Source: a virus
Strand: one strand, 5' to 3'
IMG/VR virus record: IMGVR_UViG_3300043395_003072
Location: 1-64,000 of that record
Length of the DNA stretch: 64,000 bases
The first letter of the stretch is position 1; every line of letters begins with the position of its first letter. The translations under genes and the position numbers were made by a program. The notes below the pieces were generated by a model that saw only the letters and a list, made by a program, of their open reading frames with translations, had not been told where the DNA came from and did not search any database. Shown here piece by piece: positions 5,704-56,708 of this stretch.

Positions 5704-6133
5704 TCAATGCTTTGAGTATGATAATGAGTCCGGTGACTATCTGCTTCCAACTGAGATTGATATCTATGTAGTTGCTAAGCATCGAGATGACTCTCCTCTA
5801 CTCGAAGGAGAGTTGTATCGTTTAGTAAATATTCTAGATGCTTCTACTAGTACTGTTGTGCTTTTTCAAAGCCAGTGTGGTCAGTATAAATTCTGGGAGG
5901 ATTTATTTAACTTTACCAGGAAATATGATTTGGCGGCTTGTCCTCAAAACATTCCTGCAATGCTTTGGATTCTCAAGAAGAAGAAAATCAATTATACAAT
6001 TACCTCTGTTATGAATCCTGATAGTGGATTAGTTCAGTACTCTATTAAGAATGATACTACTGTCATTACAGGTTCAGAGCTTTATATGCTCTTGTTTGAT
6101 TTCATTGATAGTAAGGTTAACTTTCTATGCTAA
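5693..6133 (+). CDS. hypothetical protein, 146 residues
   Basis: A mixed alpha/beta protein that overlaps the preceding membrane-protein gene by 11 bases and the next gene (purA-like) by 7. The ATG follows TAGGAG. I do not recognise the family. Its place immediately before the purine genes makes it a candidate partner, but nothing in the sequence shows this. Confidence 0.7.
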   Translation: MMIDQCFEYDNESGDYLLPTEIDIYVVAKHRDDSPLLEGELYRLVNILDASTSTVVLFQSQCGQYKFWEDLFNFTRKYDLAACPQNIPAMLWILKKKKINYTITSVMNPDSGLVQYSIKNDTTVITGSELYMLLFDFIDSKVNFLC

Positions 6134-7227
6134 CTAATAATGTGTCCGCCGTTTTTGGGTTGCAGTATGGCGACGAAGGTAAAGGCAAGATTGCTTCTGC
6201 TATGGCAGCAAGTAAACGCTTTAGCTTAGTTGCCCGTTATAATGGTGGCCCAAATGCGGGACACACTATTATGATTGGCGATAAAGTTTGTAAAACTAGA
6301 CAGGTACCTTGTGGAGCGCTACACAAGGTTAAGAGCTATATTGGTCCAGGCACTGTACTGGATCTAAAGAAGCTCGCTGTTGAAATTAAAACCTTAAATG
6401 ATACCCTCGGCTTTGATATTGAACAGTATCTAATTATTGATCCAAGAGTCCCTATTATAGAAGAAAAACATATCCAAGAAGATATTGAGAAGTACTCTGT
6501 AAATGGTACTGTATCTACTGGAAGTGGTATCGCTCCAGCTTATAAAGAGTTCTATGGTCGAACTGCTACTCTTGCAGGAGACTTAGAGTTACCTTATGAA
6601 GTTAGAGAAATGCATCGTACTGAGCATCTATTACTAGAAGGTGCACAGGGTATTTGGCTTGATCCTATTCATGGCAACTACCCAAATTGCACTAGTAGTC
6701 ATTGCTTACCTAGTTTTGCATCAGCAACATTTGGCTTTTCACCTTTAGCTTTTAAAGAGATAATTGGTGTCGCCAAGGTTTACGAAACTAGAAGTGGTGC
6801 AGATGATTATTTCTATTGGCCCAAGTCATTTAAAGGGGAGCCTTATCGCCCCAACGATGACCAGCTAAATAAGATTAAAAATCAACTAGAACAGCTACAA
6901 GTATTAGGCAAGGAATTTGGCGTAAATACAGGACGTAAGCGTGCATGTAAGCCACTAGATGTTACTGCACTATGCAGAGCAATTAGAACTTCAGGCACTA
7001 CTCATACAGTAATTCAAAAGCTTGATATTCTAAGAGAAGCAAACTTCTGGTTTGTTTACTTAGATGGTGAGCTTGTAAAGCTAGATAATGAGCAAGAGTT
7101 TTGCAAGATAGTTGATATGTCTATTAAGACTTATAGCAACTGCAAAAAGATTACCTGGTTATCTTCACCTTATACTTTTTATGATGAAGGAGATTTTGTA
7201 GATGATTTCCCGTTACACAATCCCTGA
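6127..7227 (+). CDS. purA: adenylosuccinate synthetase (PurA family)
   Basis: This enzyme joins IMP and aspartate using GTP to make adenylosuccinate, the first step from IMP to AMP. Visible family motifs are the N-terminal nucleotide loop GDEGKGK (residues 15-21), 'NGGPNAGHT' at about 39-47, 'GPGTVLD', and 'LLEGAQGIWLD' in the middle. At 366 residues it is shorter than typical cellular enzymes (about 430). The Asp of GDEGKGK, the catalytic base in PurA, is present. As I recall, phage PurZ enzymes, which act on dGMP to make 2-aminoadenine, replace that residue, so ordinary IMP use is more likely; this is inference. The gene overlaps the purB-like gene by 26 bases. Confidence 0.9.
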   Translation: MLTNNVSAVFGLQYGDEGKGKIASAMAASKRFSLVARYNGGPNAGHTIMIGDKVCKTRQVPCGALHKVKSYIGPGTVLDLKKLAVEIKTLNDTLGFDIEQYLIIDPRVPIIEEKHIQEDIEKYSVNGTVSTGSGIAPAYKEFYGRTATLAGDLELPYEVREMHRTEHLLLEGAQGIWLDPIHGNYPNCTSSHCLPSFASATFGFSPLAFKEIIGVAKVYETRSGADDYFYWPKSFKGEPYRPNDDQLNKIKNQLEQLQVLGKEFGVNTGRKRACKPLDVTALCRAIRTSGTTHTVIQKLDILREANFWFVYLDGELVKLDNEQEFCKIVDMSIKTYSNCKKITWLSSPYTFYDEGDFVDDFPLHNP

Positions 7228-19366: not shown

Positions 19367-19491
19367 CAGTTACTTAATATTAAGAGATATCAGAGAAGAT
19401 GCGAATGCATCAAAACTGAGTATTTATACTCAGAGCAAGACCAAAGTATTTTTAAGATAATAACAACCCACATAGTATTAGGAGCTTGGCT
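19367..19491 (+). promoter_or_regulatory. intergenic region with two hairpins before the Ubl-region genes
   Basis: Hairpin GATGC-GAAT-GCATC (19398-19411) and perfect hairpin CTGAGTAT-TT-ATACTCAG (19416-19433) follow each other. The string ATTAAGAGATAT upstream of them recurs in the gap before the poly-Ubl gene (about 25136). This may be a shared promoter or regulator site for the cassette; I see no clear -35/-10 pair. Confidence 0.4.
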
Positions 19492-20358
19492 TTGCTCATC
19501 AAGTCTACTATTGATAATAAATATATTCCTTATCACGACAAAGTTATGTATTCTTTTAACAAGATCCTTGGAAAGGTACATAATAAACTTATTGATACAT
19601 CTCCTATCCTTAGCGGTAGCGCTGCAATATCTTTATTATATGCCCCTAAAAAAGCATTCAGTGACTTAGATCTTTATTTCAGCAAAGAGTCAGATTATCT
19701 AAATGCATTTAATTTTATTAAAGAAGTAGTACCTCAAACAAAAGAAAATACATATATAGATACTAAAGATAACGAAGAAGATATAGACGAAGAAGGTAAT
19801 CTACTTTACTACATTACTGATAATGCAGTCTCAGTAGTTACTCCAGCATACAAGATCCAGCTTATTAAAAGAGAGTTCTTATCTCCCGAAGAACTTATCT
19901 ACAAGCATGATTTTACAAATGTCTCTGTAGCTATATCTCCTCAAGGTATTTATACAACAAAAGAAACCAATTCAGCTTGGTTTGAAAAGAAACTTGTTCT
20001 TAGAAATTATCAAATAAAAGATGACGCTTCTTTAGAAGATACACTTATGTTTTATTATAATTTTCTAAACAGAGTTAATAAATATAGACTTCGCTATTCT
20101 CTTAAATTATCGAATGAGCTATATTTTAAAATAAAAACTATCAAAGATAACCTAAACTATCTTTTAAATGATGACTCTTCAGAACAAGTTACTCGTGCTC
20201 TTGAAAACGTTGCTTTGAATACGAATCCATACTACTCCGGAGAAAGAAAGATTTTTGCTATTGCTTCTTTAAAGAGCAAGCTTCTAGACACTGCAAAAGT
20301 CTTACTGGCATCAGGACTCATGTTAGAGAATTCAAACAATGAAAATATTCTGTTTTGA
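19492..20358 (+). CDS. nucleotidyltransferase-fold protein
   Basis: A 288-residue protein. The motif 'LSGSAAISLLYAP...FSDLDLYF' (around residues 40-62) has the G-S...D-x-D pattern of DNA polymerase-beta-type nucleotidyltransferases, as in AbiEii-like toxins, where the two Asp residues bind metal. I choose TTG at 19492 (AGGAG at good spacing) over TTG at 19486. The substrate is unknown. It is immediately upstream of the Ubl cassette and could belong to it. Confidence 0.6.
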   Translation: MLIKSTIDNKYIPYHDKVMYSFNKILGKVHNKLIDTSPILSGSAAISLLYAPKKAFSDLDLYFSKESDYLNAFNFIKEVVPQTKENTYIDTKDNEEDIDEEGNLLYYITDNAVSVVTPAYKIQLIKREFLSPEELIYKHDFTNVSVAISPQGIYTTKETNSAWFEKKLVLRNYQIKDDASLEDTLMFYYNFLNRVNKYRLRYSLKLSNELYFKIKTIKDNLNYLLNDDSSEQVTRALENVALNTNPYYSGERKIFAIASLKSKLLDTAKVLLASGLMLENSNNENILF

Positions 20359-20566
20359 TAGAGAAAATTGCGGATACTTCTACTACTTGGAAGAAGAAGA
20401 CTACAAGAACATAGACTTCTCCAATAAATTCATCAACTGTCCCGAGTGTACTTCCTTAGCAGCTTATGTTCCTGACGATTTTGTTATGGAAACAAGCAAA
20501 GAAGAGTACATTCAAATCTATGCTAAGATTAATAAGGTATTTAAAGAATATGACGACGACAATTAA
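20339..20566 (+). CDS. small Cys-containing hypothetical protein
   Basis: A 75-residue acidic protein with CFDRENC and CPEC, a likely zinc ribbon that normally mediates protein or nucleic-acid contacts. It overlaps its neighbours by 20 and 17 bases, so it is translated as part of the same operon as the E2-like gene. Confidence 0.6.
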   Translation: MKIFCFDRENCGYFYYLEEEDYKNIDFSNKFINCPECTSLAAYVPDDFVMETSKEEYIQIYAKINKVFKEYDDDN

Positions 20567-22949
20567 TTACTATAGAGATTCGCAAAACAATCTTGCTTCT
20601 TTTGAATTGCAAGATGATGTTTTTCCAGGTTTTACTGATTTGCCTGATGATGCTTCTAGAGCATTACTCCTCTCAGCTTACTCTTCTTCTTTTTCTCAAG
20701 ACCCTATTCTAAGTTATGCTGGTAACAACCTCTTGACTGGTTATCCTTTCCAGGCAGAAAGAAGGACTCTTAATAGTCTTACTCCTCTATTAAGCCTAAC
20801 AGATCAATCTACTGCAATTTACAATAGTACAAGATATACAAGCCCAAGTTACTTTAATAATGTTGATAGCTTCTTACCAAGTATTAGCTTTAACAAGGAT
20901 GTATATAGGCAACTTTATACTGATCACCAAGTAGTAGCCTTTCAAAACACTTATACTACAGAGTTCCTTACTCAAAATGAAACAGTAAGAAGTTATACTC
21001 GTGGATCAATAAACGATCCTCAAGTGTTTTTCGAAAATCCACCTCAGCTTCCATACCTTTACTATTGTAAGAAAAAGCTAGTTGGAACTGTTGATAATCT
21101 ACCTGTCTTTTCAACTTTAGTTCCAGAAGCTTTTGTAACATTTAAAGATAAATGCATTAAGCTAGATGATATTACCTACCACTATGCTCCATTTGTTAAA
21201 AGCTCTTTTCCAGGTACTCATCGCCGGTGCTATGCAATTAAAAGCAACTTGAAATCAACTATAAAGTCTGGTGTTTTTGCTGACATTAGCACTGAAAATG
21301 CAAAGCTAATGGATATTATTGCTAACTCTACAGCTAAGCGTTTTACAGTAATTGAAGTACCAGGATGGTCATCTGCAGCTAAACTAAATGATCCTCTCAA
21401 GATTGTTGAATATACTAAGTCTCAGGTTCAAAAGCGTAAGGCTTGTTTGATTCCTGCGCTCTTCAAAATGCAATTTAGAGATGAAAACTTTCAACTAAAG
21501 GATTGCTATCATTTCTCTCTTGTTTTGAATGTAAAGCTATTCTTCTCAACTATTGCTAGTATTAATTCTTTTTCGAATCTAATAAATTCGTTAGGAGAAG
21601 GCGATGGTTTAAAGTTCTTTAATCCAGAAGCATACAAAGAAGCAATTTACAAAAAGCTTGGAATCTTAAGTTATTATAGCAGTCAGATGGTAGCCTCCTT
21701 GCCAGAAGCACAACTCAATATGCTTCTACACAAGTACACTACTCAAACCAAATCTACGCATCTTAATAGTGCTGATTGCGACGATATATTTTCTATTAAA
21801 CTTAATGTAAATCCAACTATCACTACAAACCTAGATAAAGCTAACGCTAAGTATGAAGAGATTAAGAACAATATCAAAACATACAAAAAGCACTTTCTAG
21901 AAACTTTTAATCAAAAGTCTTCTGCAGTTACCACATATATTGATTACAAAAGACGACTTAAAGAAGTAAAAGATACTTACGAAAATACTACACTTCATAA
22001 TCTTACCACAGTAATTGATAATATCTCCTTCTCTACGAGAGTAGCTCAAGTTGTAAAAGAATTTGAAAACGCTTATGAGGCAGATAAGAAAAGAGCTTTA
22101 TCTGAAAAAGATTATGTAAAAGATGAGTTCTTTAATAATCTTGCAAAAGATGGAATTTATATCGAATCTATCTCTTTTAAAACTAAAAATGGCAACACAA
22201 AGACCCTTACAGCTAACACTTTTGATAAAACCCAAATCTTAGACCACTTACTAAGTAATGATAGATCAAGTCTAATTCAATCTATCTCTAATATTACTTT
22301 GGTAACTACTAAGCCTCAGAAGATTAAGGTAGATAACGACCCAAATATGATTGTTGTAGGCGGTCCTTACCGAGTGTATGCTGAGCCAAATCTCCTGCAA
22401 GTTTCCTTAGCAGAACTTCCTGCTGTTTGGGGTTATAATCCAAACAACACTGATTATATTTACGTTCACCCTCATGCTGCTAGTGTTACAATTAGCTCCA
22501 CAACAGTACTTGATAAAGCTAGAGCATGTTTAGGTGAAGCTGCTCCAATGCTTCACAAAGCTGGTACTACTGGCGATATCAAGATGATGATCTATACTAT
22601 TCTTATCTGGCTTCGCTCAGCGAATAGTGCAGATCCTTGGGGTCGTAATTATGTTCACTTTCCTAAGCTATCTGATGTTGACTTCGAAGGTATTACTATG
22701 GAGAAGTTTAACAAGATTAGGGAAGAGCAAAGTCTTGAGGTTAATGAGGAAGATATTGATTCTTTCCTTTTAACTGATTTAGGAGACCCCGAAGAGGACG
22801 ATGATAGTGAGGAAGATCTCCCCTCTACAGACGACCCTGTAGTTGAAGATCAAACTATTACTATTGAGCAAATCTTTGATACAGCTTCTCCTCCGGCCTA
22901 TGTAAGATGGTCGAATTTAGCAAATCAACCCACAGACCCAACAAGGTAA
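20550..22949 (+). CDS. large protein with E2-like (ubiquitin-conjugating) signature
   Basis: A 799-residue protein. Near the C-terminus it shows 'YVHPHA' (His640-Pro641-His642) and 'ARACLGEA' (Cys660), preceded by 'GGPYRVYAEP...ELPAVWGYNP'. This recalls the E2 pattern HPN...C-L and the prokaryotic E2-like families linked to JAB and E1 genes, where the cysteine carries the modifier. The spacing (18 residues) is longer than in eukaryotic E2s. The first 600 residues are not recognised and could recognise substrate. The tail after about 710 is acidic and disordered. It is encoded just before the JAMM and E1 genes. I assign E2 by context and motif, so it is not certain. Confidence 0.6.
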   Translation: MTTTINYYRDSQNNLASFELQDDVFPGFTDLPDDASRALLLSAYSSSFSQDPILSYAGNNLLTGYPFQAERRTLNSLTPLLSLTDQSTAIYNSTRYTSPSYFNNVDSFLPSISFNKDVYRQLYTDHQVVAFQNTYTTEFLTQNETVRSYTRGSINDPQVFFENPPQLPYLYYCKKKLVGTVDNLPVFSTLVPEAFVTFKDKCIKLDDITYHYAPFVKSSFPGTHRRCYAIKSNLKSTIKSGVFADISTENAKLMDIIANSTAKRFTVIEVPGWSSAAKLNDPLKIVEYTKSQVQKRKACLIPALFKMQFRDENFQLKDCYHFSLVLNVKLFFSTIASINSFSNLINSLGEGDGLKFFNPEAYKEAIYKKLGILSYYSSQMVASLPEAQLNMLLHKYTTQTKSTHLNSADCDDIFSIKLNVNPTITTNLDKANAKYEEIKNNIKTYKKHFLETFNQKSSAVTTYIDYKRRLKEVKDTYENTTLHNLTTVIDNISFSTRVAQVVKEFENAYEADKKRALSEKDYVKDEFFNNLAKDGIYIESISFKTKNGNTKTLTANTFDKTQILDHLLSNDRSSLIQSISNITLVTTKPQKIKVDNDPNMIVVGGPYRVYAEPNLLQVSLAELPAVWGYNPNNTDYIYVHPHAASVTISSTTVLDKARACLGEAAPMLHKAGTTGDIKMMIYTILIWLRSANSADPWGRNYVHFPKLSDVDFEGITMEKFNKIREEQSLEVNEEDIDSFLLTDLGDPEEDDDSEEDLPSTDDPVVEDQTITIEQIFDTASPPAYVRWSNLANQPTDPTR

Positions 22950-22953
22950 TATC

Positions 22954-23976
22954 ATGAAATCTGTTTCCGACTTTAGAATGTTAAATGCTCCACCAAATAT
23001 CCTTGCAACAAGGAAAACAATTCAAGCGATCAAGCATATTGTTAAGATTGCTCCTGAAGAGGCTCAGTGGTTTCATACAGTCGAGTATGACTCTGAATCA
23101 AACTCTTTGATACTTGGTGAAGAACTATATATCCCTGAACAAGTTTGTTCTGCTGCAGAAGTTGATACTAGCTCTAGTATGATTGTTCGCTTTTACAAAG
23201 AGCTATCAGCTAAATATGATCAAGAGACTACAAATAATATTCTTAAATCTATGACTTGTTGGTGCCATAGTCACCACAATATGGCACCTAATCCAAGTGG
23301 TCAAGATGTAAGGCAGTTCTCTACATTAATCCAGCAATCCATAGATCAAAATCAGTCTTCTTGGCAAATCATGCTAATCTTCAATAAGAAAGATCAGTTT
23401 TATAGCCGAGTTTATGATCCAAATTCTGGCAACGTTTACGAGGGTGTCCCTATTGATGTTGTCGAGGATAGCTTTGATTTTAATTACATTGATGTTGCTG
23501 CTAAAACAAAGTTTAAAACTCCTACACCAGCACCTGCAGCTTTCGCTAATTATAAGTTTGGATCGCCTACACAGGTAAAGAAGATCCCAACAGATAATTA
23601 CAATTCTCAGATTGCTGAAACTATTATGGATCAAATTTTTACTACTAAAGATCTACTTCTAGATAAGTTTAAATTCTCTAAGAAAGAAGCTCAAACTTAC
23701 CTAGCTAATATCCATCAATGTTTAACCGATAAAGAGATTCTTTGGTTTTATAGTGTATTGTCTGGAAAGAAAGATATCATTATTGAATCTTATTCAGATG
23801 AAATTGCTAGTAATAAACTCAAAGAGCTTGAGCTTCCTCTAAATACTTTCTTTATAAACTTATTTACTTCAGGTAAGTTTACTCCAGATCATTGTAAGAA
23901 AGCTTTGAAGGCTATCTTTGAGCTAGATGACTGTCCGACTATTAGTGAATTAATCCAGAAAGTGAAGTTGGCTTAA
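22954..23976 (+). CDS. JAB/MPN (JAMM) metallopeptidase, Ubl processing candidate
   Basis: A 340-residue protein. The JAMM zinc motif H-x-H-x7-S-x2-D is complete: His105, His107, Ser115 and Asp118 in 'CHSHHNMAPNPSGQD'. An upstream Glu suitable for catalysis lies in 'SLILGEELYIPEQ'. JAMM enzymes cut after the C-terminal Gly of ubiquitin-like proteins, so this is the likely enzyme for separating the poly-Ubl chain or reversing conjugation. The C-terminal 200 residues form an extra helical domain. The stop overlaps the E1 start by one base. Confidence 0.85.
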   Translation: MKSVSDFRMLNAPPNILATRKTIQAIKHIVKIAPEEAQWFHTVEYDSESNSLILGEELYIPEQVCSAAEVDTSSSMIVRFYKELSAKYDQETTNNILKSMTCWCHSHHNMAPNPSGQDVRQFSTLIQQSIDQNQSSWQIMLIFNKKDQFYSRVYDPNSGNVYEGVPIDVVEDSFDFNYIDVAAKTKFKTPTPAPAAFANYKFGSPTQVKKIPTDNYNSQIAETIMDQIFTTKDLLLDKFKFSKKEAQTYLANIHQCLTDKEILWFYSVLSGKKDIIIESYSDEIASNKLKELELPLNTFFINLFTSGKFTPDHCKKALKAIFELDDCPTISELIQKVKLA

Positions 23977-24668
23977 TGCAAGTAAGTTTCCTTAGGCATA
24001 GTGGTTTCTTTGGTCCTGAAGATGTAAATGGTAAAACTCTAAATATTATTGGAGTTGGTGCCACAGGAAGTTGGGTTGGTCTCATCGCTGCTAAGATGGG
24101 CTGGCATAACTTCCGAGTCTGGGACCTTGATATCGTTGAGTCTCATAATCTACCTAATCAAATTTATAGTGCAAAGCACATTGGTATGAAAAAGGTTGAT
24201 GCTTTTGAGCAAGTACTAAAGGAGTTCAATCCTCAAGTACAAGTTCAAAAGTATGATCGTTTTTATACAAACCAAGAAGACATTTCTAAAATGGATTTTG
24301 GTTCTTATATGTTTATTGCAGTAGATAGTCTTTCCGCAAGGAAAGATATCATTGAAGGTGTTAAGAATAATCTCTTCTTAGAGTTAGTTGCTGAGTCCCA
24401 AATGGGTTTTACTCATGCTACTATTAACTACTTTGAGCCTAATGATTACCTTCAGTTAGATACTTACAAGTCTATGCTAAAAGATGATTCTGAAGTAACT
24501 GAATCAGCTTGCAATGAACGTATCATTACTACCTTGACAGCAATGGTTGCTTCTGAGATAGTTCAGACAATCTCTGCTCACGCTTCTAAAAGTCGTAGAA
24601 CCGACGGATATAAGCGCCCACATAAACAAATCTTCTCTCTTAACCCTCTAAAAGTAATTACTTTTTAA
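23976..24668 (+). CDS. ThiF/E1-like Ubl-activating enzyme
   Basis: A 230-residue protein. The Rossmann loop 'GVGATGSWV' (from residue 26), the Asp pair in 'VWDLDIVE' (50 and 52), 'NLPNQIY' (58-64) and a Lys at 72-73 match the ATP-binding core of E1/ThiF/MoeB enzymes, which adenylate the C-terminal Gly of a beta-grasp protein. Cys179 in 'SACNERI' is a candidate thioester residue. The zinc CxxC pairs of MoeB are absent, so it is a minimal E1. It is placed between the JAMM gene and the Ubl genes. Confidence 0.85.
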   Translation: MQVSFLRHSGFFGPEDVNGKTLNIIGVGATGSWVGLIAAKMGWHNFRVWDLDIVESHNLPNQIYSAKHIGMKKVDAFEQVLKEFNPQVQVQKYDRFYTNQEDISKMDFGSYMFIAVDSLSARKDIIEGVKNNLFLELVAESQMGFTHATINYFEPNDYLQLDTYKSMLKDDSEVTESACNERIITTLTAMVASEIVQTISAHASKSRRTDGYKRPHKQIFSLNPLKVITF

Positions 24669-24680
24669 TAAGGAATTAAA

Positions 24681-24875
24681 ATGACAACACGTGAACAACT
24701 ACAAGAAATCGTAGATCTTCTAACCCCTGCACTTGACGATGCTGCTAAGTTTGATCGAGGCATGGAAAGCCCAGGTACTCGTGTAAGAGTTGCTGCGTCT
24801 CAAGCTTCTAAGCTACTAAAGGCACTTCGCTCATCAATTCAAGAGACTCGCAAGTCTCGTAAGGATCAAGAATAA
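24681..24875 (+). CDS. histone H1-like (Hc1-type) small DNA-binding protein
   Basis: A 64-residue protein. The pattern 'SPGTRVRVAASQASKLLKALRSSIQETRK' in its second half resembles bacterial and phage Hc1-like proteins (GT-R-x-R then Lys/Arg-rich helix). Such proteins bind DNA without sequence preference. It sits inside the Ubl cassette between E1 and the single Ubl, with TAAGGAATT before the ATG. It could be a conjugation target, but that is a guess. Confidence 0.55.
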   Translation: MTTREQLQEIVDLLTPALDDAAKFDRGMESPGTRVRVAASQASKLLKALRSSIQETRKSRKDQE

Positions 24876-25099
24876 TGGTTACTATTACTCTCGTTGTAAT
24901 TCCTGGCCCCGGTGCTCGCACCGTTCAACTCTCCGATACAGCTACAATTCAAGATCTTGTGGTTCAAGAGAATCTCCACGGTCGCGATATTATTGTAGAT
25001 GGTCAAGGAGTAGCACCTGCTAGCTGGTCTTCAACACCAATTTCTTCTGGTGTTGAGATCTTTGCAACTGGCTCCGTTAAGGGCAACTCTTCTAACTAA
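24875..25099 (+). CDS. single beta-grasp ubiquitin-like protein
   Basis: A 74-residue protein. It has a ThiS/MoaD/ubiquitin-like layout: first strand 'TITLVVIPGPG', turn, helix 'TIQDLVVQENLHG', strand 'DIIVDGQGV', and last strand 'EIFATGSVKG'. Gly70 is followed by four residues (NSSN), so it would need trimming to expose Gly, as with ubiquitin precursors. It is about 70% identical by eye to each unit of the poly-Ubl that follows. The start overlaps the stop of the histone-like gene (TAATG). A terminator follows. Confidence 0.8.
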   Translation: MVTITLVVIPGPGARTVQLSDTATIQDLVVQENLHGRDIIVDGQGVAPASWSSTPISSGVEIFATGSVKGNSSN

Positions 25100-25173
25100 T
25101 TATCTCTTTATAAGATTTTAAGAAAACAGCCAGATTATTAAGAGATATTAACCTGTTACTTTAATTACCAACT

Positions 25174-25196
25174 AAGGGGCAATAAGCCCCTTTTTC
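25174..25196 (+). terminator. intrinsic terminator between the two Ubl genes
   Basis: AAGGGGC-AATAA-GCCCCTT followed by TTTC gives a strong hairpin with a T-run. It separates the operon ending in the single Ubl from the poly-Ubl gene, so the two modifiers can be made at different levels. TATCTCTT/AAGAGATA flank the first half of this gap as a possible regulatory inverted repeat. Confidence 0.8.
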
Positions 25197-25219
25197 ATTT
25201 CATTATTAAGGATTTTACT

Positions 25220-25855
25220 ATGGCTACCATTACTCTCGTCGTTATCCCTGGTCCTGGCGCTCGCACCGTAACCCTCGCAGCAGGTGCTTCTGTTGCTGAC
25301 CTTGTGTGTCAAGAGAACCTCCATGGTCGTGATATTATTATCAACGGCCAAGGTGTTCCTGCTGCTACTTGGGCTACAGCAACAGTCCCTGAGGCTGCAG
25401 AAGTCTTTGCTACTGGCTCCGTTAAGGGCAACTCTAACTCTATCACGCTTGTTGTTATCCCTGGGCCTGGTGCCCGTAGTGTTGCGCTTCCTGCTGGTGC
25501 AACCGTTGCAGATCTAGTTTGTCAGGAAAACTTGCATGGTCGTGATATTATTATTAATGGCCAGGGCGTAGCGCCTGCGCTTTGGCCAACAACACAGGTG
25601 CCTAGCCAGGCTGAAGTTTTTGCAACCGGATCTGTTAAGGGTAATGCTCATACTGTTACTTTGATTGTGATCCCTGGACCTGGCGCTCGCATCGTACAAG
25701 TAGAGCAAGGAACTACTGTTGCTGATTTTGTTTGCCAAGAAAATCTTCATGGCCGTGATATCATTATTAATGGCATTGGCTTGATTCCAGCAGACTGGGC
25801 TTCTACACCAGTTCCTCCAAACGTCGAGATCTTTGCTACTGGTTCAGTTAAGGGC
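25220..25855 (+). repeat. three coding repeats of the Ubl domain
   Basis: DNA repeats at 25220-25429, 25430-25642 and 25643-25855 encode the three Ubl units. They are diverged at third codon positions, so the triplication is not recent; protein-level identity is kept by selection. The single Ubl at 24875 is a fourth, separate copy. Confidence 0.85.
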
Positions 25856-25894
25856 AATAAGGATTCATCTGTGCCCGCAAATTTTACTATGTAA
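25220..25894 (+). CDS. poly-ubiquitin-like precursor, three tandem Ubl units
   Basis: A 224-residue protein made of three head-to-tail beta-grasp units with an exact 71-residue period: each ends in GSVKG at Gly70, Gly141 and Gly212, and each Gly is followed by Asn. The units share 'ENLHGRDIIING' and differ elsewhere. Like eukaryotic polyubiquitin, this arrangement implies cleavage after Gly, most likely by the JAMM protein. The last unit is followed by 12 residues. A possible -1 frameshift (A AAT TTT at 25879-25885) would fuse the chain to the next frame. Confidence 0.85.
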   Translation: MATITLVVIPGPGARTVTLAAGASVADLVCQENLHGRDIIINGQGVPAATWATATVPEAAEVFATGSVKGNSNSITLVVIPGPGARSVALPAGATVADLVCQENLHGRDIIINGQGVAPALWPTTQVPSQAEVFATGSVKGNAHTVTLIVIPGPGARIVQVEQGTTVADFVCQENLHGRDIIINGIGLIPADWASTPVPPNVEIFATGSVKGNKDSSVPANFTM

Positions 25895-25932
25895 GAGCTG
25901 TTGGCGAGACTGCTAAGAAAGCTTTCGTCAAC

Positions 25933-26166
25933 ATGCTCGAACAAGAGCAGGCTTGGGCTGATGTAAAGGCAACCCCATCTCCACTCTTGTCTAAGAACCG
26001 TTACTTTATTGTTAATACTTTTGTATTTAACAATGATATCCAAGCAGCTTTAAATTATGTCTATGAGAACTGGCAGTCTTTTAGATTTAAGAAGAAAGCT
26101 GCTGGAGCACTGATCCTCTCTGATACTGACTATCTGTTTTTTACTTACGACTTACCTAAGGATTAA
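25933..26166 (+). CDS. hypothetical protein downstream of poly-Ubl, possible frameshift extension
   Basis: 77 residues from the ATG, but the frame is open and protein-like upstream ('KFYYVRAVGETAKKAFVN') back to a TAA at about 25858, with no ATG, GTG or TTG there. This stretch could be reached by -1 frameshifting from the poly-Ubl gene at A AAT TTT, or from a rare ATC start that has AAGGA just upstream. The family is not recognised. Confidence 0.6.
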   Translation: MLEQEQAWADVKATPSPLLSKNRYFIVNTFVFNNDIQAALNYVYENWQSFRFKKKAAGALILSDTDYLFFTYDLPKD

Positions 26167-26170
26167 TTAA

Positions 26171-26587
26171 ATGTCTGACAAGATTACTGTTTTTGTTATT
26201 ACTGGTGATTCTAAAACTGTACTGAATTCTGTTAAAGAGATGGTAGCTTCTGGTGCAGTTGCTATCAAAGCCTCTACAGAGACAAAAGCTATTGCAGCTC
26301 CTGCAGTGCTTTCCTTGCACAAAACCAAGTGCACTGATGTTCCATTCTCAAAGCTTTATATCAAGCCAGCTGCAGAGTTCTTAACTGGAGTTGGCAATGG
26401 TATTGTCCGATTTTCGGAGATGCTAAAATTTATCAATAAGAAAGTTGGCTCTATGCCTTCAAACAGAGAGCTTTCTTCTTTCTTGCGCAATAACAATTAC
26501 ATTCGTCTTCGTCAAACTATTGATAGTAAATCAACCTTCTTCTGGGTAAAGAAAGGATCTGTTTATGCTCTCGGAATCTCTAAGTAA
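26171..26587 (+). CDS. hypothetical protein, 138 residues
   Basis: Begins like a small alpha/beta domain ('KITVFVITGDSKTVLNSVKEM'), has an Ala-rich linker, then a compact C-terminal domain with basic helix features ('PSNRELSSFLRNNNYIRLRQT'). It may bind DNA, but no family is recognised. It is the next gene after the Ubl cassette and may be part of it. Confidence 0.65.
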   Translation: MSDKITVFVITGDSKTVLNSVKEMVASGAVAIKASTETKAIAAPAVLSLHKTKCTDVPFSKLYIKPAAEFLTGVGNGIVRFSEMLKFINKKVGSMPSNRELSSFLRNNNYIRLRQTIDSKSTFFWVKKGSVYALGISK

Positions 26588-26801
26588 TGCTTTTCAACGC
26601 ACTGACCTTGAGAACAACGGTATCATCTATCGTTGGAATCTAAATAACGTTCCAGATGCAGTAACTCAAATCTTATTTCTAAATGATTTGATTCTTCACG
26701 AAATGTCCTCTGGACGTGTTTGCAAAGTAAGACCTGACAAGCGTAAGCGAGCTCAAGGTCTTGTTGTTGTATTTTCTAATCCTTTGGAGGGTTCAAAATA
26801 A
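26565..26801 (+). CDS. small hypothetical protein
   Basis: A 78-residue protein with GAAAGGATC before the ATG, overlapping the preceding gene by 23 bases. It has a basic stretch 'KVRPDKRKRAQG'. The family is not recognised. Confidence 0.6.
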   Translation: MLSESLSNAFQRTDLENNGIIYRWNLNNVPDAVTQILFLNDLILHEMSSGRVCKVRPDKRKRAQGLVVVFSNPLEGSK

Positions 26802-27109
26802 TGGGTGCTCAAACATTTTATGATGAAGGCTCAGGCACTGATCCAAAGCAAGTCTTTAAAGATTTAGTTCAAGACGCTTTGCATTGGCATGGACACTCTC
26901 CTTATTCTGGTACCATCAAGGAAAAGCATAACTTTATTATGGCTACTAAGGATATTTTATCTGTAGAAGATGCTTATTCTTTAGCTGATAAACTAATTAG
27001 TACGCCTAACTATTCCGATAAATGGGGCCCAGCTGGTTGTATCCAGATGCTTCCTTCAGCAGGCAATACTACCCCAAGATATCTATTCTTTGGTTGGGCT
27101 TCGTCTTGA
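26801..27109 (+). CDS. conserved-looking phage hypothetical protein
   Basis: A 102-residue protein starting with 'MGAQTFYDEGSGTD', reminiscent of small conserved phage proteins of unknown role, with His-rich 'HWHGHSPYSG'. The His cluster might bind metal. The TAATG overlap upstream and TTGA overlap downstream show operon coupling. Confidence 0.65.
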   Translation: MGAQTFYDEGSGTDPKQVFKDLVQDALHWHGHSPYSGTIKEKHNFIMATKDILSVEDAYSLADKLISTPNYSDKWGPAGCIQMLPSAGNTTPRYLFFGWASS

Positions 27110-37108: not shown

Positions 37109-38405
37109 ACATAATCATGAAGTGGCTTGTAATCATTGCGAGAAGCAATTTGTACACTTGCATGTGCATACAGAATACTCGCTTCTTGATGGAATTAATA
37201 AGGTAGATAGGCTCCCTAAGCATGTAAAAGCTATGAATCAACCTGCTGTTAGTCAAACAGATCATGGTACGATTTCTGGTTGTTACAAGTTTTACAAGGA
37301 GGCTAAAAAAGCTGGCGTTAAACCAATCATAGGCATGGAAGCTTATTATACGGTTGGTGATAGAGCTGCAAGAGAGCCAGATGAAATGGGTAAGAACTAT
37401 TATCATCTTATTCTCTTAGCTCAAAATAACGTCGGGCTACATAACCTTATTAAGCTATCATCTTACTCCTATACAGAAGGTATGTATCATAAACCTCGCA
37501 TTGATGATGAGTTGATTGCTCAATACTCAGAAGGCTTAATTGCTACTACTACTTGTCTTGGCAGTAGAGCTTCTCAGTTGATTCTAAACGGAGAAGTTAA
37601 AGCCGCAGAGAAATTGATACATCATCACAAGGCTATGTTCAAAGACAGGTTCCTTGTCGAGCTACAACCTCATGTAGATCCTGAACAGATGCTAGTAAAC
37701 AAGACCCTGCTTCAGATCGCTACTTCTAATGATCTTCCTATGGTTATTACTGGTGACTGCCATTACCAGCATGACCACGATAAGATGCACCATGAAGCTG
37801 CGCTTTGTATGCAAACTAAAACTAAACTATCCGATGAGAAGAGATTCTCTTTTGGAGAGCTAGAAGTACATGTATCTGATCATGATTGGATGTGGGCTAA
37901 AGCAGAAGCTCAAGGACTTCCTTATGATGTAATATCTAATACTGTATCTGTTGCTAATATGATAGATAGTGATTCTTACTTCATGGATCGAATGAATCGC
38001 TATCCTAAATATCAAGAGATTCCAGATAACCTTAGATCATTTGAGCTATTAGAAATAGAAGCTCAACATGGTTTATGGGCTAGGTTTAATAGTATGCCGC
38101 CTCAAGAATACAGAGACAGGCTTGCTCATGAACTCAAAGCTATTAAGAAGATGGGCTTTTCAGATTACATGCTAATCGTTGCTCAATTTATGAATGGCGC
38201 AAGAGATTATGGAGTGATGCATGGCCCTGGTCGAGGTTCCGCAGCTGGCAGTCTAGTTGCCTATGCTCTAAGAATTACAGAAGTCGATCCTATTAAATAC
38301 AACTTGGTGTTCTCTCGCTTTCTAAATGAAGGTCGCGGAGCTACACCCTTAATCTTTAACCATGAGATGGCTGCTATTGCAGACAGCCACCGACTACCTT
38401 TTTAA
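37098..38405 (+). CDS. dnaE: DNA polymerase III alpha (DnaE), fragment 1: PHP domain and start of palm
   Basis: 435 residues from ATG 37098 (37086 or GTG 37083 are alternatives). The PHP domain begins 'HLHVHTEYSLLDG' (from residue 19), followed by 'QTDHGTISG'. Near the end 'GRGSAAGSLVAYALRITEVDP' and 'FSRFLNEGRG' are the finger/palm-entry motifs. The DnaE sequence then stops exactly before the catalytic PDIDID and is replaced by 21 unrelated residues and a stop. The continuation is encoded at 38657. No intein block is visible at this break. Confidence 0.88.
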   Translation: MSCEHNHEVACNHCEKQFVHLHVHTEYSLLDGINKVDRLPKHVKAMNQPAVSQTDHGTISGCYKFYKEAKKAGVKPIIGMEAYYTVGDRAAREPDEMGKNYYHLILLAQNNVGLHNLIKLSSYSYTEGMYHKPRIDDELIAQYSEGLIATTTCLGSRASQLILNGEVKAAEKLIHHHKAMFKDRFLVELQPHVDPEQMLVNKTLLQIATSNDLPMVITGDCHYQHDHDKMHHEAALCMQTKTKLSDEKRFSFGELEVHVSDHDWMWAKAEAQGLPYDVISNTVSVANMIDSDSYFMDRMNRYPKYQEIPDNLRSFELLEIEAQHGLWARFNSMPPQEYRDRLAHELKAIKKMGFSDYMLIVAQFMNGARDYGVMHGPGRGSAAGSLVAYALRITEVDPIKYNLVFSRFLNEGRGATPLIFNHEMAAIADSHRLPF

Positions 38406-38416
38406 GGATAATTACA

Positions 38417-38587
38417 ATGACTACTATTTATGCGATTCAGAATAAAACAAACAATAACTTTGTTCCTGTAAACGGCACTATGTTTTTCTCAAAGCGTAGT
38501 GATGCTCGTGCAGCTCGTGCAAACCTTCAGGGAAATGATTATCGAATTGTTACTACTACTGTTACCGATTGGAAGACAGCTAAGTAA
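38417..38587 (+). CDS. 56-residue protein inserted between DnaE fragments 1 and 2
   Basis: A basic, Asn/Thr-rich protein with TTAAGGATAATTAC before the ATG, so it is translated independently. It is the only frame in the 250-base gap between polymerase fragments. No homing-endonuclease motif is visible. The family is not recognised. Confidence 0.6.
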   Translation: MTTIYAIQNKTNNNFVPVNGTMFFSKRSDARAARANLQGNDYRIVTTTVTDWKTAK

Positions 38588-38593
38588 CTAACA

Positions 38594-38610
38594 CCCACCT
38601 TTACAGTGGG
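38594..38610 (+). terminator. weak hairpin after the inserted gene
   Basis: CCCAC-CTTTACA-GTGGG without a T-run. It may stabilise the message end or regulate DnaE fragment 2, which starts 47 bases later. Termination is doubtful. Confidence 0.3.
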
Positions 38611-38656
38611 CGCATCTCTTTAACATCCATCTCTTATAGGTTATGATGCTTCTCAT

Positions 38657-40252
38657 ATGCTCTCCAAAGATATATGTTTAAAATATATAGATACTAAAGT
38701 TATTGAAGAAAGATTAGATCAAATAGATCCTGACTTTCTAGAATATGAAGTAAAGATGATATCTCGAGAAGATATTAATCGAATACATAATGTACTAGTA
38801 GTTCAAGATTTTAAATTTGAAGAAAATCCTCATAACAGTATCTTGCTTTATATTACTGGGTTAACCGATCAATTTGATTTTGAAGCTATGAGATCGAATA
38901 TGATTGGTGGTGCACCCCCGGATATCGATATAGATCACGATGCGCTAGAGCGTGAGAAAGCTATTCAATGGTGTATTGATTATTGGGGGCGAGAAAAAGT
39001 CGCCAATATTATTACTCATGGAACTTTTAAACCTAAAAGTCTAGCTAGATCTTATTATCGTATTACTGAGAAGGATCAAGAAGATTTAACAGAACTTCTT
39101 AAAATGATTCCGCCTCCTAAGTATGGCAAGGAAGCCTCTCTCTCAGAAATACTAGAACAAAACCCAAATCTATCCGAAGAAGAGAAGTATAAAACCTTTC
39201 TTGAATTTGCAGATAGAATAGAAGACATGGTTGCAAACTTTGGTATTCATGCGGCTGGCGTAATTATTTCTGACAAAGAAATCTCAGATACTATTCCTAT
39301 CTGGAAGAATTCTAAAGCAGATAGAATTACTCAGTTTGATAAAGACGAATGCGAAGAGCTTGGGTTGCTCAAGTTCGACTTCCTCGGTATCGATACTATC
39401 TCTATTATCAAAGAGTGCGTTTCGCTTATCAAGAGAGACAAGGGTGTAGAAATACAGCCTTACTCTATCCCAGATGGCGATACTCTAGCTTATGAGAAAC
39501 TAAACGAAGGGCATCTTGTTGGTGTGTTTCAAATGGAGACCTCTGGTACTGCCAAGAGGTTAATCATGGATATTCAACCAACTAGCATTGAGGACCTTAG
39601 TGCTATTAGTGCCATTAATCGCCCTGGACCGTTACAAGCTAATCTTGATAAAACCTATATAGCTAACAAACTAAACAAAGCTCCACCAGATACGCTTCCT
39701 GCTCAAGTAGCTGAGATACTCAAAGCTTCATACTGGACCTTGATATATCAGGAGCAGATTATGTCTTTGTTTACTGAGCTTGCAGGGTTTACACCTCAAG
39801 AGGCAGATGAAGTACGTCGAGCTATGGGTAAGAAAAAGCTAGAAGTATTAGAGCCTTACAAAGATAAGTTTATTATAAAGTCCCAAGAAATTGGAGGCTT
39901 GCTCGCTGAATATGCTCAATCTTTATGGTCTGATATATTAGGTTTTGCAGATTACTGTTTAGCTGGAAATACTCAAGTTAAGATTAAACAAACTCCTTAT
40001 GTAAAAACTATTGCAGATATAGTAGATGACCAAATATCACCTACTGTTTTCTCTTATAATGGCTCTGAATTTATAAGACAGAGGGTTGAACAATGGCATT
40101 ATAAGGGAGTAAAACAAACTTACACTTATCTTTGCGAAAACGGAGCGTCAGTTACTTGCACTCCAGATCATAAATTCCTTACAATAGATAATAAATTTAA
40201 ATCTATTGATGAAATTTATACTAATAACTTAGAGATATACACCATAGAATAA
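38657..40252 (+). CDS. dnaE: DnaE fragment 2: catalytic palm/fingers fused to N-half of a split intein
   Basis: A 531-residue protein. Residues 1-85 match nothing I know. DnaE resumes at 86 with APPDIDIDHD (catalytic Asp pair), then 'LLKFDFLGID' (third Asp), 'AINRPGPLQ' and 'LGFADY'. At Cys434 a 98-residue IntN begins: 'CLAGNTQVKI' (block A) and 'GASVTCTPDHKFLT' (block B, TxxH), ending in a stop. This is the same DnaE site (FA-D/E-Y|C-FNK) as the cyanobacterial DnaE split intein. The rest is at 51776. Confidence 0.9.
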   Translation: MLSKDICLKYIDTKVIEERLDQIDPDFLEYEVKMISREDINRIHNVLVVQDFKFEENPHNSILLYITGLTDQFDFEAMRSNMIGGAPPDIDIDHDALEREKAIQWCIDYWGREKVANIITHGTFKPKSLARSYYRITEKDQEDLTELLKMIPPPKYGKEASLSEILEQNPNLSEEEKYKTFLEFADRIEDMVANFGIHAAGVIISDKEISDTIPIWKNSKADRITQFDKDECEELGLLKFDFLGIDTISIIKECVSLIKRDKGVEIQPYSIPDGDTLAYEKLNEGHLVGVFQMETSGTAKRLIMDIQPTSIEDLSAISAINRPGPLQANLDKTYIANKLNKAPPDTLPAQVAEILKASYWTLIYQEQIMSLFTELAGFTPQEADEVRRAMGKKKLEVLEPYKDKFIIKSQEIGGLLAEYAQSLWSDILGFADYCLAGNTQVKIKQTPYVKTIADIVDDQISPTVFSYNGSEFIRQRVEQWHYKGVKQTYTYLCENGASVTCTPDHKFLTIDNKFKSIDEIYTNNLEIYTIE

Positions 40253-51775: not shown

Positions 51776-53038
51776 ATGAAAATTGTCTCCAAGCAAGATG
51801 CTGGAGAGCAAGTAGTTTACGATATTGGAGTGGCTAGCTTAGAAGGTCATAACAATTTCTTACTAAACAATGGGCTCGTAGCATCTAACTGTTTTAACAA
51901 AGCGCATAGTGTTAGTTACTCTGTTCTAACTTACATTACTGCATACCTAAAGGCTCACTACCCTGTTGAGTTTTTCACCTCTCTGATGTCTACTCGATCA
52001 AAGACTTTGCAACCTAAAACCTGGGCTATTAAAGCTCCAGAATATATCAAGGAAGCAAAACACTTTGGAGTAGATATTAATCCTCCATCTGTAAATCAAA
52101 GTAGCTTTGAGTTTACTGTTATAGGCTCAGAGATTTACTTTGGACTTAATGCTATTAGGGATGTAGGGCAAACAGCTGCAAGAGCTATTATTGCAGCTAG
52201 AGGCTCTATAGCTTTTAAAGATATTAAAGACTTTCTTAATAGAGTTAATCTTCAGAAGGTAAACACTAAGGTCTTTGAGGCTCTTGTTAAAGCAGGTGCT
52301 TTTGACAAGATGGGTTATACTCGATCAGAGCTTCTAGAAAATACTTCTGCTATTTATTCTTATATAAAAGATATAGAAGATTATAAACAGCGAGAAATTG
52401 ATTTTGTTGAAAGAGAAAATCACAATCTTAGAGTTGTTCCCTTAATAGAGCGTAGAGATTTTCTTAGAAATGAAATCAAGAAGATAGAGAATAGAATAGC
52501 TAAAGCTAAAGATAAGCCTGAAGATGCTGCCACACTTCTAGCTTATCAAGAAGAACTTCAACCTCTAGAAGATCAAGCACTTAAACGTTTACCTGCTTTG
52601 CAAAAGTTTGAGCTTCCAGTATTTCCTGAACTTCAAAGGAATAAACTTGTGCCTTTGAATCTTAAAGAAATTATGGAGCAAGCTCAATATATAGGTTGCT
52701 ATATTGGTGGTCATCCACTAGATCTTATTTCTATTGAGAAAGATGATCTGGATACTCTAGAAGAAGATACGTATGCAACTGTAGCCGGTGTTGTTCTATC
52801 TACTAAAACTGTAAAAACAAGATCAGGCAAGATGATGGCTTTCTTTGAAATAGATGATTCTACTAGCAGTGCAGAGATTGTAGTATTTCCGCAGCTCTGG
52901 TCTAAGGTAGAAGCTCTAGAAGTAAAAGAGACTGATATTTTAAAGTGCCGAGTTAAAGTTGAATCTACAGATCCAGATATAAAACTAATTCTTCAATCAA
53001 TAGAAAGATTTAAAATACAAAATGAAATGGACACCTGA
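51776..53038 (+). CDS. dnaE: DnaE fragment 3: split-intein C-half fused to the polymerase C-terminus
   Basis: A 420-residue protein with its own AAAGGAAAT ribosome site. Residues 1-38 are an IntC: 'VVYDIGVASLEGHNNFLLNNGLVASN' with terminal Asn, then Cys39 starting the C-extein 'CFNKAHSVSYSVLTYITAYLKAHYPVEF'. Both the sequence and insertion point match the DnaE intein of cyanobacteria. After trans-splicing to fragment 2 the C-extein supplies the HhH region ('SIAFKDIKDFLNRVN') and an OB-fold ('ATVAGVVLSTKTVKTRSGKMMAFFEIDD'). Confidence 0.92.
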   Translation: MKIVSKQDAGEQVVYDIGVASLEGHNNFLLNNGLVASNCFNKAHSVSYSVLTYITAYLKAHYPVEFFTSLMSTRSKTLQPKTWAIKAPEYIKEAKHFGVDINPPSVNQSSFEFTVIGSEIYFGLNAIRDVGQTAARAIIAARGSIAFKDIKDFLNRVNLQKVNTKVFEALVKAGAFDKMGYTRSELLENTSAIYSYIKDIEDYKQREIDFVERENHNLRVVPLIERRDFLRNEIKKIENRIAKAKDKPEDAATLLAYQEELQPLEDQALKRLPALQKFELPVFPELQRNKLVPLNLKEIMEQAQYIGCYIGGHPLDLISIEKDDLDTLEEDTYATVAGVVLSTKTVKTRSGKMMAFFEIDDSTSSAEIVVFPQLWSKVEALEVKETDILKCRVKVESTDPDIKLILQSIERFKIQNEMDT

Positions 53039-55452: not shown

Positions 55453-55684
55453 CTTCTATGTTGAAGCTAATGTAAATAACAAGCATATAGATATCTATGG
55501 GCCGTACTCGAAAGAGGCGGCTTTTGATTTTATAGTTAAAGATTTACTTTCTTGTTTAAAACAAAAACATGCATCTTCATTCTTTTTATCATCATTACTT
55601 TATTATTTAGATGAAAATCAAAATAAGATTGTATTTTTAAAAAGAAACCTATCTAGGATAAATAATGAGAAGCCACAACGATAA
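55439..55684 (+). CDS. small hypothetical protein
   Basis: An 81-residue protein. The ATG at 55439 is chosen over an upstream in-frame one that would lie in the Cas4-like gene's cysteine region. The family is not recognised. It overlaps the next gene by 20 bases. Confidence 0.55.
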   Translation: MSPNSFYVEANVNNKHIDIYGPYSKEAAFDFIVKDLLSCLKQKHASSFFLSSLLYYLDENQNKIVFLKRNLSRINNEKPQR

Positions 55685-56708
55685 AATATTTTCTTTAGAA
55701 GACCCTACTGCTCCTAAGCTTACGACAGATGATGTACTTCTAGTACCTACTATTGGAAAGCTACAGTCCCGATCTCAAGCAAAAGTAGACTCTACATTTA
55801 TTTATTCAAGTCCAATGGATGTAGTTACTGGGTTAGATCTATGTAAAGCTATGCTTAACGAAAGACAAGCTCCAGTACTTTGTAGGTTCCTACCAGAACC
55901 TGAACGAAGATATGCCTTGTCTTTATATCATGCTAATTCTAACTTCTGGTATTCTGTTGGTTTAAATAAAGAAGATTATGATTTCTTAGATTTTTACTTC
56001 ACTCAAAAAGGTAAGAATTCAAAAGTAAATGTATCTGTAGATATAGCCCATGGTGCAACTGAACAAGCTTATAAGCTTTATAAACTGTACTCAGAAGCCC
56101 CTTGGTGTAGAGCTATTATGTCCGGAACAGTAGCTACTCCAGAAGCTGCTGAATATGTGAGTAATTACTGCTCTCATATACGCGTTGGAATAGGTCCAGG
56201 AAGCGCTTGTTCTACAAGGATAGTCACTGGTTGCGGGTATCCTAATCTCGCTGCTGTATACGAAATTAGAGCTACATTAGGAAGTGATCATTATATTATT
56301 GCTGATGGTGGCATTAGATCTTCAGGAGATATCATTAAATACTTAGCGGCAGGTGCTGATGGCGTAATGCTTGGTAGTATGCTCTCTAGTATTGATGAGT
56401 CTCATGGATGGTTAGAACCATTTATTGGCAAACCATATAAGTATTATAGAGGTCAAGCTTCTAAGCAGTTTCAAATTGAACGTCGAGGGAAGGTTAATGG
56501 TGCGCCCGAAGGTGTTCAATCAAATAAAAAGATTTATAAATCAGGTAGCTTCTCTGATTTTAATAATCAAACAAAAGCATCAATTGCTTCGGCAATTTCG
56601 TATCTAGGTATTAACTGTATACAGGATTTAAATCCTGACAATGTTAAATTTGTTCGAATAACTACTTCTGGCTTACAAGAAAGCCACCCCCATATTTTAT
56701 TAAAATAA
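55665..56708 (+). CDS. IMP dehydrogenase/GMP reductase family enzyme, likely GMP reductase
   Basis: A 347-residue TIM-barrel enzyme. The loop 'GIGPGSACSTRIVTGCGYP' (catalytic Cys near residue 183) and the 'ADGGIRSSGDIIKYLAAGADGVMLGSM' phosphate-binding block are clear. It has no CBS insert and is exactly the size of typical GMP reductases. A GMP reductase would make IMP from GMP, feeding PurA/PurB; an IMPDH would do the reverse step. The 'YRGQASKQFQ...APEGVQ' flap region is kept. Family certain, direction uncertain. Confidence 0.85.
   Translation: MRSHNDKIFSLEDPTAPKLTTDDVLLVPTIGKLQSRSQAKVDSTFIYSSPMDVVTGLDLCKAMLNERQAPVLCRFLPEPERRYALSLYHANSNFWYSVGLNKEDYDFLDFYFTQKGKNSKVNVSVDIAHGATEQAYKLYKLYSEAPWCRAIMSGTVATPEAAEYVSNYCSHIRVGIGPGSACSTRIVTGCGYPNLAAVYEIRATLGSDHYIIADGGIRSSGDIIKYLAAGADGVMLGSMLSSIDESHGWLEPFIGKPYKYYRGQASKQFQIERRGKVNGAPEGVQSNKKIYKSGSFSDFNNQTKASIASAISYLGINCIQDLNPDNVKFVRITTSGLQESHPHILLK

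Follow-up and report, generated by a model that had tools for sequence, protein, structure and literature searches.

Does a phage carry its own machinery for attaching a ubiquitin-like protein (Ubl) to other proteins? The question is raised by a run of genes in the IMG/VR virus record IMGVR_UViG_3300043395_003072, of which bases 1–64000 (the window; the whole record has 158,462 bases) were analysed. A preliminary description made from the sequence alone had marked five linked genes at positions 20550–25894 as a conjugation cassette comprising an E2-like protein, a JAMM peptidase, an E1-like enzyme, a Ubl and a poly-Ubl, and all five were found open at those coordinates on the plus strand, as are the cassette features and neighbouring genes given below from 19486 to 27109. 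Judged on sequence, these genes probably encode a ubiquitin-like protein conjugation cascade of the phage's own, because the gene set and its order, the homology of the parts, the invariance of predicted catalytic residues and the retention of the cassette across a phage lineage agree with such a function.

The minimal E1 (23976–24668) is a single ThiF/UBA5-type adenylation domain of 230 residues that matches Pfam ThiF well above the curated cut-off (E-value 6.3e-20; 71.8 bits vs 28.1). The glycine-rich motif G26xG28xxG31, the pair D50xD52 and Cys179 (codon at 24510–24512), all named in the preliminary description, are present and conserved; in the alignment of E1s, Cys179 is invariant in 29/29 sequences, including those of crAss001, FpV4, PhiXhv-15 and bacteria. 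We take it to be the counterpart of ThiF Cys184 and UBA5 Cys250, the PDB alignments ending before this position. Profile matches in the PDB include UBA5, Cap2, ThiF, BubCD (4.5e-05) and MccB (1.9e-06), and named phages yielded distant E1 matches only (crAss-like, Flavobacterium, Xanthomonas and other phages). The JAMM/JAB metallopeptidase (22954–23976; 340 residues) is divergent in sequence with its motif intact, and is therefore named by that motif and a sub-threshold match to Pfam Prok-JAB (0.0019; 18.5 bits, below the curated cut-off of 25). Its motif H105-S-H107-x7-S115-x2-D118 is complete, as had been noted, and is joined by an upstream Glu36; all five residues (E36, H105, H107, S115, D118) are invariant in 24/24.

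The 799-residue protein (20550–22949) consists of a variable N-terminal region of ~420 residues, a long coiled coil (~420–518), an E2-like core (~560–712) and an acidic tail. The HPH...CLG pattern reported near its C-terminus corresponds to HPH640–642 (22467–22475), the counterpart of the E2 HPN motif, and to C660-L-G-E, with Cys660 (22527–22529) as the predicted active-site cysteine. Other conserved core residues are W687 and A-N692-x-x-D695-x-W-G698. Among 14 large homologues, which span 727–1115 residues and diverge strongly over the N-terminal ~420, HPH is kept in 13 (TPH in contig L035), and Cys660 is invariant in every aligned large, small-phage and bacterial homologue. Read directly, the spacing from Cys to Asn (+32) and from Cys to Asp (+35) is equal in the 799-residue protein and the bacterial E2s. 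The tail (22899–22949) ends Y-x-[RP]-[YFW], with Y784 invariant in nine aligned homologues, and could possibly be a docking tag.

This protein is called E2-like by transitivity, because its link to canonical E2s runs through intermediate profiles. Smaller HPH...C proteins from phages and bacteria, taken together as one profile, align with the core (hhalign Prob 96.1, E 3e-9 over 158 columns) and also with four yeast E2s (Prob 86, E 5e-6), in the latter case with the HPN motif and active-site Cys in register; a reversed-E2 control gave Prob 0.06 (0.06%). The yeast sequences used may contain small errors. An AlphaFold2 model of residues 519–721 (22104–22712), built from 19 sequences, is confident (pLDDT 86, pTM 0.84) and places strands, HPH loop, Cys660 and helices in what appears to be an E2-like order. 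In BFVD the fold search picked up a single genuine homologue (A0A6J5NL39, E 1e-17), which belongs to an uncultured Caudovirales phage, and full-length matches to PI3K p85 and SMC proteins were set aside as meaningless, being driven by the coiled coil. Direct searches of Pfam, NCBIfam, PHROG and PADLOC with the 799-residue protein gave no match, nor did searches of named phages with it and the triple Ubl, or a near-identity DNA search. The preliminary description had counted a fold without an E2 core and a non-conserved Cys660 as evidence against its E2 candidate; Cys660 proved invariant, and the core connects with canonical E2s via the intermediates, so that the available profiles support an E2-like protein with Cys660 as its predicted catalytic residue.

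Two Ubl genes, one of them triple, were present as first described. The single Ubl (24875–25099; 74 residues) ends ...ATGSVKGN-SSN, and the triple Ubl (25220–25894; 224 residues) holds units at 25220–25435, 25439–25645 and 25649–25858, each with a VKGN end, giving four units in the whole record. Direct comparison with a bacterial ThiS-type Ubl reached only Prob 44, and the match to TIGR01683 thiS (21.2 bits) lies under the cut-off of 37.45. The window Ubl does align with a small phage Ubl (Prob 87), which aligns with the bacterial ThiS-type Ubl (Prob 94), and one bacterial relative matches Pfam ThiS above cut-off; by this profile route, through small phage Ubls, the phage Ubl is homologous to ThiS-type beta-grasp Ubls. 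Across cassettes a gene carries 1–4 units, which are 71% identical on average within one gene vs 61% between loci. In contig L005 (9986–11137) four tandem Ubls are fused at their C-terminal side to a homologue of the window's 102-residue 'GWASS' protein (26801–27109), an arrangement resembling eukaryotic ubiquitin–ribosomal protein fusions. Poly-Ubls and a Ubl–protein fusion imply proteolytic maturation.

The phage Ubls of these cassettes all end K-G-N, followed by a stop or a variable tail, whereas their bacterial relatives end ...PKVEGG, usually with a variable tail of 1–4 residues, or QGG at the stop. In register, the phage Asn stands where bacterial Ubls have their terminal Gly, and the variable tail begins directly after it. 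Either the JAMM would cut before the invariant Asn, or the mature Ubl would end in Asn; a mature modifier ending in Gly-Asn rather than Gly is suggested tentatively, as the less expected of these outcomes. Were the JAMM to cut at the position homologous to that in bacterial Ubls, the group activated by the E1 would be the carboxylate of Asn, for which MccB offers a parallel; a succinimide might be the intermediate. The resulting Ubl linkage would be of a chemistry not known elsewhere and might resist host deconjugases. Separately, one Ubl gene in each of five relatives has a 20–30-residue tail, GPSQTGRPSGGGRGNNPxxGK, after KGN.

To gather relatives, IMG/VR was searched with the Ubl, the E1 and the large protein. 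The order E2-like protein, JAMM, E1, Hc1-like protein (in most) and Ubl(s) is shared by 13 or more other divergent contigs, whose E1s are 40–59% identical, and in many of them the cassette is followed by a P-loop gene, PhoH and a conserved 'SFNIYKK' protein. Contigs L032–L035 and L047, the last from a bacterial metagenome-assembled genome, carry the same order down to 40–50% E1 identity. The 14 E1s of same-order contigs form one clade (support 100/99). Chance is excluded by the conservation of gene order in many independent contigs, and retention of the cassette at such divergence is direct evidence for selection on the set. The claim of a complete Ubl/E1/E2/JAMM set is supported by profiles and by catalytic residues invariant across divergent phages. 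To the preliminary description the present analysis adds Glu36, the upstream open reading frames (ORFs), the lineage-wide conservation, the bacterial operons and the Gly-Asn end.

Nine viral contigs beyond these (L037, L038 and L040–L046) hold more distant Ubl-E2-JAMM-E1 cassettes, those of L038 and L040 each with a pair of E2-like genes. The small E2 homologues carry the motif HPHVxGxxGxxCLGN. In five contigs (L037:3207-4232, L041:5748-7079, L043:714-2096, L045:1850-3232 and L046:2422-3780) a RING-like/treble-clef Cys cluster follows the E2 core, matching Pfam Prok-RING_1 only at E 0.89; these single polypeptides are candidate phage E2–E3 fusions. Starting from a proteobacterial operon on a chromosome (L048), a multi-copy E2 family was detected by the small-E2 profile in 12 of 284 bacterial genomes. 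As loci L060–L074 show, bacterial genomes carry several copies each of Ubl-E2-JAMM-E1 operons, and for the E2 in them neither Pfam nor NCBIfam has a matching model. Short-pattern scans for Ubls found no relative in bacterial or archaeal genomes, and neither small E2s searched in named phages nor the bacterial E2 searched in plasmids gave a match. Pfam Prok-E2_B had no match in the 284 bacterial genomes and none in 14 controls, which makes that scan uninformative.

A related set also occurs in a cultured phage. Jumbo Xanthomonas phage PhiXhv-15 encodes a Ubl with a GG end (XYR93122), an E2-like protein (XYR93121; 892 residues, HPH...CLGS, Cys-rich ends) and an E1 (XYR93120) annotated as thiamine biosynthesis. 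In crAss001, gp76, a 'thiamine biosynthesis protein', is an E1 and lies beside a JAMM (gp77), an HSH...CTG protein (gp78) and a candidate Ubl (gp79); gp76–gp79 may be another phage Ubl cassette.

In the cascade that we propose, the JAMM would process Ubl precursors, whether single or tandem, to maturity at their conserved ...VKGN end, and would probably also strip Ubl from conjugates. The minimal E1 would adenylate the Ubl at its C-terminus and very likely carry it as a thioester on Cys179, and the Ubl would move on to Cys660 of the large protein. The coiled coil and the fast-diverging N-terminal ~420 residues may select the target, making the large protein a combined E2/E3; in other phages the RING-like zinc cluster behind the E2 core may do so instead. 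What we infer here is the reaction order, maturation by the JAMM, covalent conjugation and N-terminal target selection. As to targets, the analysis favours host proteins, modified for takeover or counter-defence, over the virion parts that had also been suggested, because the genes around the cassette are PhoH and genes for nucleotide metabolism and DNA replication, not those of the tail block.

A narrower use is conceivable, in which the Ubl is placed mainly on the cascade itself, on other Ubls or on one phage protein such as GWASS, building or regulating a single phage complex. The poly-Ubl–GWASS fusion of L005, the GWASS homologues near the cassette in several relatives and a lineage-wide retention that suits a fixed phage target all speak for auto-modification, but the fusion occurs in one contig only, and the fast N-terminal divergence of the large protein suits varying targets better. 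We regard this narrow use as unlikely.

Several observations weigh against a conjugation cascade. The virus record is possibly incomplete, and a C-terminal Gly-Gly is missing from the phage Ubl. Neither Pfam nor NCBIfam has an E2 model that matches the large, small-phage or bacterial E2-like proteins; compared directly by hhalign, the large core and yeast E2s align weakly (Prob 4). In the comparison with E2 folds that the preliminary description had proposed, Foldseek of the confident core model against the PDB found no significant match, with Tsg101 UEV at rank 14 (E 1.7, TM 0.22–0.27). The weak direct score and the missing PDB match would also fit a large protein that is some other Cys/His enzyme or a Ubl receptor, in which case E1, Ubl and JAMM would need no E2, like the SAMP systems of archaea. 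That arrangement seems improbable, since the HPH/HPN, Cys and N..D positions align through the intermediates, the residues are conserved and small homologues carry HPHVxGxxGxxCLGN. Least probable is a sulfur-carrier pathway for thiamine, molybdopterin or cysteine, considered and rejected, in which E1 and Ubl would act as ThiF/ThiS or MoeB/MoaD and the JAMM as in the CysO–Mec route, where Ubl, E1 and JAMM likewise occur together, the Ubl never being attached to protein: the ThiF-type E1 and the Pfam ThiS match of a bacterial Ubl relative agree with it, but it is made less likely by an E2-like protein with an HPH-type motif and invariant Cys present every time and by the absence of rhodanese, ThiG and PALP (CysM-type) genes from the phage record, in which they were searched for, and the Ubls are tandem and end in GN, not GG.

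Other genes adjoin the cascade. A 64-residue helical protein encoded between the E1 and Ubl genes (24681–24875) matches Pfam Hc1 above cut-off (6e-08; 32.9 bits vs 23.5), and its gene is kept in seven relatives. The earlier label 'histone-like' holds as far as this match; a chromatin role is unsupported because the protein lacks a Lys-rich tail, and was rejected. Directly 5' of the E2-like gene, here and in nine relatives, is a small Cys-rich, zinc-ribbon-like ORF (20339–20566; CxxxxC...CPxC) that overlaps both neighbours and likely belongs to the cassette. Upstream of it lies a nucleotidyltransferase-like ORF of 290 residues (19486–20358; pattern SGSxA...DxDxYF; phrog_4400, 3.8e-07), with homologous ORFs in five relatives. 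Between the two Ubl genes an intrinsic-terminator-like hairpin (25174–25192), identified by consensus match only, is a possible operon end; the triple Ubl may therefore be a separate unit, perhaps a high-dose Ubl supply.

Elsewhere in the window, DNA polymerase III alpha (DnaE) is fractured into ORFs at 38657–40252 and 51776–53038, with tail-type genes between them. The first ends in an intein N-part (CLAGNTQVKI...), and at the start of the second is an intein C-part (...HNNFLLNNGLVASNC), after which comes the rest of DnaE; a further break lies at 38405–38657. Such pieces are likely joined by split-intein trans-splicing. A phage PurZ-type adenylosuccinate synthetase gene (6127–7227; phrog_1211) hints at 2-aminoadenine DNA, and an IMPDH/dehydrogenase-like gene (55665–56708; phrog_9582) adjoins the replication genes.

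Bacteria turn ubiquitin-like conjugation, as in CBASS and Bil, on phages; a phage lineage with its own full cascade would mean that this chemistry is put to use by phages as well. With such a cassette one can test how lineages outside the eukaryotes acquired or replaced E2s, RING fusions, poly-Ubl precursors and the C-terminal Gly, and the cultured Xanthomonas jumbo phage with its related Ubl/E2/E1 set offers an experimental entry. Pfam and NCBIfam have no model for this E2 family, so related systems in bacteria have probably been overlooked. Our literature search found no paper on phage-encoded E1/E2/Ubl cascades, in a coverage that omitted preprints and many journals, so an earlier description is possible.

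The suggestion that the set fits no named cassette agrees with the outcome of comparison with PRTRC, CBASS type II and the prokaryotic systems of Iyer et al. 2006 (PMC1779556), who described classes 6a–6e and the phage TAPI/TAPK proteins. Like the cassette, classes 6a–6e link Ub-like, E1-like, E2-like and JAB genes, and 6e has 2–3 tandem Ubls (PMC1779556). However, E2 is fused to E1 in 6a–6c, whereas the phage parts are all separate; the 6d E2 lacks the upstream His and has a downstream one, whereas the phage protein keeps its upstream HPH; and in 6e the E2/RWD-like fold is inactive and JAB is fused to E1, unlike the invariant Cys and separate JAMM and E1 seen here (PMC1779556). No class unites a stand-alone E1 and JAB, a His-and-Cys E2 and tandem Ubls, and membership was rejected on the features tested. 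Bil, Bub and CBASS type II are studied relatives, of which Bil and Bub are named as immune pathways (PMC13373217). CBASS type II Cap2/Cap3 shares a related E1 domain (PADLOC E1–E2 models, 7.7e-13; PDB Cap2), but Cap2 is an E2–E1 fusion acting on a cGAS-like enzyme, neither of which occurs here (PMC10097602). It was rejected since the phage E1 stands alone and the PADLOC matches do not extend beyond the E1 portion of Cap2-type models. Bil and Bub also comprise Ubl, E1, E2 and JAMM, and the match seen here is a weak one of the E1 to BubCD; the Bil E1 pairs inactive and active adenylation domains (PMC11354881), in contrast to the single phage domain. Phage tail TAPI/TAPK likewise provide a phage-encoded Ubl and JAB, but in a tail block without E1 or E2 (PMC1779556), whereas the window cassette sits in a replication region. 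PRTRC systems share a ThiF-type E1 and a JAB and were rejected, PRTRC_ThiF scoring 19.6 vs a cut-off of 144.75 and no other PRTRC model matching.

MccB of microcin C7 adenylates, by E1-type chemistry, a peptide ending in Asn, which is a chemical precedent for the phage modifier end; it acts on a heptapeptide and works without E2 or JAMM. The bacterial chromosomal operons (L048, L060–L074) share all four components, a minimal E1, a ThiS-type Ubl and a coiled-coil E2-like protein with HPH[VI]xxDGxPC[LW]GN. They differ in a Ubl that ends GG and has a single unit and in an E2-like protein of 323–543 residues, and no Hc1-like gene was seen in them. What is new in the phage systems is the K-G-N ends, the tandem Ubls (1–4), the poly-Ubl fused to a phage protein and the E2 core fused to a RING-like cluster, and the cassette is a phage-borne version of prokaryotic Ubl conjugation with an unusual modifier end.

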